From positions 1-62,661 of the forward strand of contig JAUQQQ010000010.1 of the NCBI GenBank assembly GCA_030549815.1: 62,661 bases of DNA, in the 5' to 3' direction. Position numbers and translations under genes: made by a program. This DNA comes from a bacterium (lineage in GTDB: Bacteria > DRYD01). The notes under the pieces are model-generated. The model did no database searches. It was not told the origin of the DNA and saw nothing but the letters and a program-made list of their open reading frames with translations. Below, in pieces: positions 37,043-43,584 of this stretch; the first letter of the stretch is position 1, and every line of letters begins with the position of its first letter.

Positions 37043-37087
37043 CCTCCTCTCCTCATTGAAAAGAGGAGCTTCCTGCTTCATTGAAAA
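37039..37087 (-). ncRNA. Possible TnpB guide (reRNA/omega RNA) scaffold at the IS right end
   Basis: In IS605-type elements the TnpB guide RNA comes from the 3' end of tnpB and the right end, with the guide being host DNA just beyond the terminal TCAC. Here the hairpin CTCCTCT...AGAGGAG followed by GGTCAC occupies that place. The putative guide would be the reverse complement of the bases just before 37039, in the glycine-zipper gene. Family knowledge and position support this; no transcript evidence exists. Confidence 0.4.
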
Positions 37088-37760
37088 AGCTTACACGGAT
37101 ATAGGGGTTAGAACCCAATATTCGTGCAGATGCTTCCCTCTCCGCAGGCATAAGCTTGGGTCGGTCCAACCCTACCACCCTTAAGGCGGGTGAAACCTTT
37201 TTAAGCATCACCAAACACGCATTCAAATCCCTGTCTATCTGGTTGCCACACTCAGAGCAGAAAACTATCCTGTCAGATAGCTTAAGTTCTTCAAAATATG
37301 CTCCACATTTATAACATGCTTTTGAGGTTGGTTCAAAGCGGTTAATCTCAAGGACAGGCAGGAGGCTGGAACTCAGCATCTCTCTCAACTTTCCTATCCC
37401 GGAGTATTGAACCGCTTTTGAAAACCAGCCTCTATGCCATGAACTAATACTGTCCTGCTGAAATACTATCATGTTATAAAGCTTTAGAAAAGCAATAATC
37501 TTGTTTATAGCATCCTTTCTTCTGTTTTTAATCCTCTCATGCTCCCTTCTCAGTTTTTGTCCTGCTTTCTCTCTATTTCTTGAGCCTTTTCTTTTTCTTG
37601 CAAGCTCTTTCTGTAGTCTTTTAAGTCTTTTGCTCTCAGGAATCTCAAAGTCAATCTTCATGCCATTGGAAAGCGTTAGCTTGTCCTTTACTCCAAAATC
37701 TATAGCAATAGGCTTTCCTACCCGAAGGGAGGCTTCGCCGAAAAAGGGGAGCCTTCTGGC
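37053..37760 (-). pseudogene. tnpB: TnpB (IS605 OrfB) lacking its N-terminal half
   Basis: The open frame covers about 235 codons against roughly 370-400 in a full TnpB, and has no plausible start before the ATG at 37661. Upstream of that ATG the RuvC-I block PIAIDFGVKDKLTL is still present, with its Asp at about 37698-37700. The middle shows VFQQDSISSWHRGWFSKAVQ, where relatives have FQDE at the RuvC-II acidic site, so the acid may be shifted or changed. The zinc finger (ACYKCGAYFEE, VFCSECGNQ) and the RuvC-III DRDLNA are intact. The recognition half is missing, so the protein is unlikely to be an active nuclease. Confidence 0.85.
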
Positions 37761-42046: not shown

Positions 42047-42062
42047 CCGCCGGGCCCCGCGG
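42047..42062. other. 16-bp all-G/C imperfect palindrome upstream of alaS
   Basis: CCGCCGGGCCCCGCGG is sixteen consecutive G/C bases in a genome where such runs are otherwise absent outside tRNA genes. It equals its own reverse complement at 14 of 16 positions. It sits immediately upstream of a TATATA that could be the alaS -10 box, 27 bases before the start codon. It could be a protein-binding site or a DNA/RNA structure; its function is unknown. Confidence 0.5.
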
Positions 42063-42277
42063 TTTTTCTTTCCCTATTTTCAAAATTTTTCCTTTTTTTA
42101 TCTTTTCCTCTTATTTCTTCGTGGTTTTAAATCCTTTCCTATACTAATTTTGATTTGAAAAAAAAATGATTCATACTGGTGAATAATTTTTCCCTATTTG
42201 GTTCGCTGTTTTCCCAAAAATTTTATAAAAATTTTTATAAAAAATTTTATAAAAAAAATTAATTCTGTTAGTAGTGC

Positions 42278-42330
42278 TTACTACTACTATATATATACAT
42301 ATAAAGATAGTAGTAGTATAATTATCCACA
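42278..42330 (+). promoter_or_regulatory. DnaA-trio repeats next to a consensus DnaA box, with a mirrored copy
   Basis: TAGTAGTAG (42308-42316) ends five bases before TTATCCACA (42322-42330). This is the arrangement described for DnaA-trios that guide DnaA onto single strands in the basal unwinding system. A mirror copy, TTACTACTACTA (42278-42289), stands on the other side of an AT-only segment (TATATATACATATAAAGA), making a perfect CTACTACTA/TAGTAGTAG inverted repeat. No DnaA box flanks the left copy. Confidence 0.7.
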
Positions 42331-42332
42331 TT

Positions 42333-42658
42333 TGTGGAAAACTTTTTAGAAATAAGTATTTTCAATGGATTGTGGTTTTTGGGGGATGTGGAAAAAGTGT
42401 GGAAAAACTCCAAAAGTATGTGGAAAAAATTTTTTATTTTCTGAAGTTTTCCACATTTTTTCCACATACATACTCCTGTTTTTCCACAAAAAATTAAAAG
42501 TTTTCCACAAAAACGTCAAAAGTTTTCCACATGTGGAAAAAATTGTTAAAAATGTGGAAAAGTTGGGGGGGGGATGTGGAAAAAATTTTTGGGGTGTGGA
42601 AAACTATGTGGAAAAAATGTGGAAAAGTCGGTGGAAAAGTCAGGGAGGATGTGGAAAA
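42333..42658. repeat. Cluster of sixteen TGTGGAAAA (TTTTCCACA) DnaA-box variants
   Basis: Exact forward copies start at 42333, 42387, 42398, 42419, 42532, 42553, 42575, 42595, 42607, 42618 and 42650. Exact reverse copies start at 42447, 42458, 42480, 42501 and 42523. The copies at 42523 and 42532 form a head-to-head palindrome (TTTTCCACATGTGGAAAA). They differ from the consensus DnaA box by one base. Orientation is in blocks: four forward, five reverse, seven forward. Confidence 0.9.
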
Positions 42659-42659
42659 C

Positions 42660-43340
42660 TCTATTTGTGAAATTTTTACAAAATTGTTAACTTTGTTAAA
42701 AATTTCTTGCTTAATGTTACACAATTATTGAAAATATTACATAATTGTTAAATTTCTAAAAAAATTGTTAACCAATTGTTACAACTTTATAAAGCATTGA
42801 TAGAAAAGAAATTATAAAGACAAAAAAATGCAAAAAAAATTGATTTTTATCGTTTTTTTGAACTTTTTTAAAAAAAATGTTAAAAAATTATTGAAAAAAT
42901 GTTAAATTTGTAAATGAAAACTTAAAATTGTAACAAAAAAGTTAATCTGTTGTAAAAAATTTGTTAACAGAAAAATTTTTTTACAAAATTAAAAGATTTT
43001 TTACAAATTTTACTTTGTTTTTACAAATTTTACAATTCAAATGTTAAAAATTTTTTAAAAATTTTTTAAAAAAGTATTACAAAATTTTTGCCAAAATGTA
43101 AAAATTGTAAAAAATTTATGAAAATTATTGCCAAATTATTAATAAATTGTTAAAATTTATAAACCAAATAAAATCAATGTATAAAAGTAGTTTACAAAAT
43201 TGTTAAATTTATTAAAAAATTATGAAATTTTTTACCAAATTATTGACAAATTGTTACAAAATTATTGAATTTTTGTAAAAATATCGATAAAAATGTTAAA
43301 ATTGTAAAAAAAATGTGAACAAATTTAAAAACAAAGAAAA
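42660..43340. other. Very AT-rich tract of the origin (probable unwinding region)
   Basis: The segment is almost entirely A and T with recurring AATTGTTAA, TTTGTTAA and TTACAAAATT strings (for example 42681-42700, 42745-42753, 42767-42780, 43199-43206). No open frame of coding character and no hairpin with GC stem was found. Its place beside the DnaA box field suggests a DNA unwinding element or helicase-loading region, longer than in most origins. Confidence 0.6.
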
Positions 43341-43584
43341 ATAAAGCAAAGATAAAAACTTTGAAATACAGTAAAAACACACTTCTTTGTCGTGTTAATA
43401 AACCCACGAAATCCTACAACAAGAATACACTACAATCTCTACCACTTGTATTGCACTTATATAGTTAAATACAAGAAAGACAGAAAATTGAATTTATACA
43501 GTATCTTAGTGAACTGTTTTGATATCTTTTAATTTCCCACGATGTTATACAGCAAACTTTAACAAAAGGTATCAAGTAAATGTA

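Follow-up and report, generated by a model that had tools for sequence, protein, structure and literature searches.

Where does chromosome replication begin in an uncultured bacterium whose densest field of DnaA boxes lies in a gene-free region on a different contig from dnaA? The question arises in a 62,661-nucleotide stretch (the window) of a 1.59-Mb draft genome, in which an earlier note had read such a region, at 42170-43380, as origin-like. The region is real, although its bounds are better drawn at about 42268-43345, and the origin reading is supported by a switch in strand composition, a box cluster unique in the genome, and the presence of the array in relatives. We consider it very likely from the sequence that the gene-free array region is the organism's chromosomal replication origin (oriC), on the basis of the sole box cluster, the skew switch, the conserved geometry and triplet element, the varied gene surroundings, and a complete dnaA gene. 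Judged by these features, the origin is of the ordinary DnaA kind, with an unusual but well conserved layout away from dnaA and dnaN. The locus touches on how two helicases are loaded in bacteria and on what in oriC is under selection, questions that are still open because the origins of different groups look unalike.

Table 1. Features of the proposed origin, in window coordinates
Feature	Position	Strand	Description
Proposed oriC, entire	42268-43345		Triplet element, box array, and A/T tract; at the skew switch, sole box cluster of the genome
Triplet element	42268-42321	+	TACTACTACTAT (42279-42290), TA-rich core, and TAGTAGTAGTAT (42308-42319) as candidate DnaA-trios; 2-bp spacer to box 1
Block I	42322-42341		Divergent pair TTATCCACA-TT-TGTGGAAAA; box 1 faces the triplets
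Long gap, boxes 2-3	42342-42386		45 bp, invariant AGTATT at 42355-42360; possible bending-protein site
Block II	42387-42427	+	Three forward TGTGGAAAA boxes, spacings 11 and 21 bp
Block III	42447-42531	-	Five reverse boxes, spacings 11, 22, 21, and 22 bp
Central palindrome TTTTCCACATGTGGAAAA	42523-42540		Head-to-head abutment of blocks III and IV; 9-bp offset in six of six genomes
Block IV	42532-42658	+	Seven exact boxes and one near-copy, GGTGGAAAA (42630); spacings 11-12 or 20-22 bp
A/T tract	42659-43345		TTGTTAAA/TTACAAAA words recur; may assist unwinding or widen the bubble

A single box cluster at a strand composition switch

The array is as first described, with one consensus box and sixteen exact copies of another within about 340 bp (42322-42658): TTATCCACA occurs once, at 42322-42330, and TGTGGAAAA/TTTTCCACA follows at 42333-42658, first as four forward copies, then as five reverse, and finally as seven forward ones. 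In dinucleotide shuffles, TTTTCCACA is expected by chance 1.4 times per 62.7-kb window on average and at most 5 times, and 17 copies were never reached. The repeats do not cluster in other parts of the genome, which was one of the checks proposed in the earlier note. The 1.59-Mb draft holds 51 exact copies of TTTTCCACA, 16 of them in the array, and the density of TGTGGAWAA is 17 per 400 bp in the array versus 2 at the runner-up site; a scan of the whole 1.59 Mb for a second box cluster found no other 400-bp stretch with more than two. The divergent pattern of block I, TTWTCCACANNTGTGGAWAA, occurs exactly once per genome in six of the seven genomes available for the phylum.

A second proposed check, GC skew, places a minus-to-plus switch at the array. 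Third-codon-position skew, scored on open reading frames from a simple caller, has its minus-to-plus change no more than about 2 kb from the array, both in the window and in three relatives (G002, G003, and G004). Most genes on both sides of the array in G004 lie on one strand and the switch is still present; therefore, gene direction alone does not produce it. The draft consists of 23 contigs, and in a contig-by-contig comparison of those longer than 20 kb the best minus-to-plus change is on the window's contig; contig C14 has a weaker second one near 18 kb, without boxes, and contig C5 has a strong change in the opposite direction at 78 kb, as expected for a terminus. The by-gene change point is 1.5-2 kb off the array in three of the four genomes; in the window, the raw skew also reaches its minimum away from the array, near 46-48 kb.

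Dense box clusters away from dnaA also look like datA- or DARS-like loci, which titrate or reactivate DnaA and so control initiation at another origin, and the density of this cluster and its remoteness from dnaA would suit such a role. We consider this very improbable, given that the array sits at the skew switch in four genomes and not away from the origin, that the genome has no other box cluster, and that features of the unwinding type are present at the array. DnaA boxes occur in plasmid origins too, and there is a short TnpB-like gene some 5 kb from the array, so an origin belonging to an integrated plasmid, phage, or other mobile element might be considered. This is less probable still: the array is bordered by the core genes alaS, prfA, and mfd, whose order G002 and G003 share, it is found in every one of the four genomes of the genus, and it sits at the chromosomal skew switch. 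A chromosomal oriC is the reading that we follow below.

A frame conserved between genera while its boxes, spacers, and neighbors change

Comparison of the same locus in relatives had also been suggested. A search of the phylum yielded seven draft genomes, of which six, from two genera, carry full arrays (G000-G005): alongside the window's genome, the array was found in all three same-genus relatives (G001-G003) and in two genomes of a second genus (G004 and G005), and in G006, from another family, it is present but cut off by a contig end. Each of the six has as block I a divergent pair with 11-bp spacing, followed after 53-54 bp by the three forward boxes of block II (11 and 20-21 bp apart), after a further 28-29 bp by the five reverse boxes of block III, and then by a head-to-head pair at 9 bp and a block IV of 4-8 forward boxes. 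The first eleven boxes have the same order and orientation in the six genomes, and nine of the ten spacings among them agree within 1 bp between genera, although these arrays share descent and the agreements are not independent events. When spacings were permuted, the mean agreement was 2.5-2.7, and nine was reached in fewer than 3 of 10,000 trials. The tenth spacing, within block III, is 21-22 bp in one genus versus 12 bp in the other, a difference of roughly one helical turn. Boxes of the same orientation are always spaced by 11-12, 20-22, or 53-54 bp, corresponding to one, two, or five turns. The absolute box positions shared between genera reach only moderate significance because of a 10-11-bp displacement in the left half, an effect that the ordered spacings remove.

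The long gap between boxes 2 and 3 (44-45 bp) is also conserved, with 62-80% identity among the six genomes versus 47-51% in shuffles and an invariant AGTATT. The genome encodes one HU/IHF-family protein. We do not claim an IHF consensus within the 45-bp gap, where the fit by eye is good in G004 and weak in G002 and G003.

Within this frame the spelling of the boxes differs: nearly all are TTTTCCACA in the window's genus, whereas in the second genus most of the corresponding boxes are TTATCCACA, so that most boxes differ between genera at one shared base. Block I departs from this pattern, box 1 being TTATCCACA in five of six genomes and box 2 being TTTTCCACA in all six. Apart from the long gap, most spacers match between genera at about the level of shuffles, except for G000 versus G005 (64% against 43% shuffled). 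The DnaA of the window's genus is one residue short in the GG turn that precedes the recognition helix; the second genus has this residue. We rejected this loss as the cause of the box change, since G006 keeps the GG and yet has TTTTCCACA boxes; in addition, no gap is needed to align the solved DnaA domain 3pvp, which has a single G there.

The gene neighbors change as well. As originally reported, the array is flanked by alaS and an ABC permease gene and not by dnaA or dnaN; the one complete dnaA gene is on contig C14 and dnaN is on contig C7. The window, G002, and G003 have alaS, the permease gene, prfA, and mfd around the array in the same order, and on the short G001 contig the first two of these genes flank it as well. 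Other genes flank the array in G004, and the alaS/permease surroundings are not conserved between genera. The surroundings of dnaA (C14, about 79.9-83.4 kb) include macro-domain, phosphorylase, bifunctional-nuclease, and M50-protease genes and no dnaN. No exact parS site was found in this genome, only scattered sites with three mismatches. In a genome of another phylum (G076), a smaller mixed cluster of the same boxes lies directly downstream of dnaA (C21:24374-24516).

A probable site of unwinding and a proposed order of events

One conserved part was missed in the earlier note, the triplet element to the left of box 1. In all six array genomes it consists of CTACTA-type triplets and a TA-rich core, with TAG repeats that stop a few bases short of box 1; in the window there are three TAG repeats (TAGTAGTAG, 42308-42316). 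Reading outward from box 1, the six genomes have 4-5 trios, including 2-4 GAT, after a spacer of 1-2 bases. All six thus show the pattern of the BUS rule, a DnaA box followed by at least three DnaA-trios within 16 bp, although this trio minimum is permissive in A/T-rich DNA and the GAT count is the stronger point: among 82 TTWTCCACA sites scored genome-wide, box 1 alone has three GAT trios. Five of 386 genomes, every one of the window's family, have TAGTAGTAGT no more than 8 bases from TTWTCCACA. The triplet element is also hairpin-forming (z -3.6). The TAG-triplet element is probably a DnaA-trio signature, and unwinding probably begins there, to the left of box 1, rather than in the right-hand A/T tract, because this is where the conserved element sits.

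The nearly pure A/T stretch reported after the boxes is also present, and no other 600 bp of the genome reaches its A/T content of 86.2% (81.7% for the runner-up); elevated A/T to the right of the array is likewise seen in G001-G003 and G005. As an unwinding site, however, it is probably not the only one, nor the first. A less favored reading, which nevertheless carries some weight, is that the locus is oriC but first unwinds in the right-hand tract beside block IV, the left element having another role, such as a hairpin or regulatory site. The extreme A/T content of the tract fits this reading, as do the boxes of block IV, which point at the tract with the same polarity as box 1 toward the triplets. 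Against it, a search for conserved DnaA-trios at the edge of the tract found them absent or weak, with none in three of the six genomes, and both block IV and the repeat words of the tract are variable, whereas the left triplet element is conserved. In the second genus (G004 and G005), a palindrome, TTGAYAAAARTCAA, recurs 9-11 times in the A/T tract at steps of roughly 30-240 bp; it is not in the tract of the window's genus and is possibly a site for some unknown protein.

With unwinding placed at the left element, we infer a sequence of DnaA binding, bending, and helicase loading, with a role for the right-hand tract. DnaA would bind box 1 (TTATCCACA) and its divergent partner, and the 45-bp gap would be bent toward the clustered boxes of blocks II-IV, perhaps by an HU/IHF-family protein. 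The boxes of blocks II-IV would share one helical face and serve to assemble DnaA oligomers, which could capture the single-stranded TAG triplets to the left of box 1 and open the TA-rich core, where helicase would be loaded. The long right-hand A/T tract may then widen the bubble or provide a second opening. A further, rather unlikely possibility is a two-ended origin, in which back-to-back DnaA oligomers, divided at the central palindromic pair, would open the left triplets and the right-hand tract and each helicase would be loaded at its own site; the phased frame of boxes would then be the conserved code, with box sequence and spacers free to drift.

Relation to described origins

Several parts of this layout resemble known systems. 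In the Thermotoga maritima oriC, unwinding requires three TAG repeats, tandem boxes work best with a 2-bp interspace, helical phase matters, and the gap separating boxes 1 and 2 is bound by HU (PMC10316083). The locus here likewise has three TAG repeats beside box 1 and a gap between box 1 and other boxes, but the Thermotoga boxes are the 12-mer AAACCTACCACC, with five in the minimal origin, whereas here 14-18 boxes of 9 bp, without the 12-mer, form four blocks with a central head-to-head pair. TTTTCCACA dominates the array, and had been called an unusual main repeat, but it is not a new sequence, being an established DnaA box in cyanobacteria (PMC4674748). The cyanobacterial oriC shares TTTTCCACA as its main box and the presence of several boxes, but it usually adjoins dnaN, and a phased four-block frame is not described for it in that paper (PMC4674748). 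As in the Bacillus subtilis BUS, a DnaA box adjoins 3'-GAT-5' triplets on the strand running 5' from the box; unlike the commonest predicted BUS arrangement, a tandem pair, the trio-side box here is in a divergent pair (PMC6669920, PMC8287927). The Escherichia coli oriC also places a TTATCCACA box (R1) beside its unwinding element and has a gap, to which the bending protein IHF binds, and opposed sets of further boxes (as described in PMC10316083), but the order and orientation of the blocks differ, and the boxes here are almost all identical copies of a single 9-mer.

Taken singly, then, TTTTCCACA boxes (PMC4674748), TAG triplets (PMC10316083), dnaA-distant origins, and the tolerance of whole-turn spacing changes in E. 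coli (PMC4285127, which cites Woelker and Messer) are already known. The new part is the combination, with a rigid frame and a near-wholesale change of boxes between genera. In keeping the frame while most spacers, the neighbors, and a base of the boxes change, the six genomes provide a natural experiment on DnaA-oligomer geometry, which includes a spacing difference of roughly one turn; E. coli is reported to tolerate changes of this kind (Woelker and Messer, cited in PMC4285127). For a phylum represented by seven draft genomes, they also supply an origin and a search pattern in two parts.

Other observations concern the surroundings. The sole G/C run of at least 13 bases in the 1.59-Mb genome, CCGCCGGGCCCCGCGG (42047-42062), is just upstream of alaS and about 220 bp from the triplet element; it folds no better than shuffles and is not at the same place in G002-G004. 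The TnpB/IS605 OrfB-like gene (37053-37661) is short, at 202 aa, and apparently truncated. AAA-ATPase-like/PD-(D/E)XK genes form a large expanded family, with at least eight related genes scattered over contigs C3, C5, C10, C11, C12, C14, C15, and C19, and these are relatives of a gene in G005 (L201:3761-5290).
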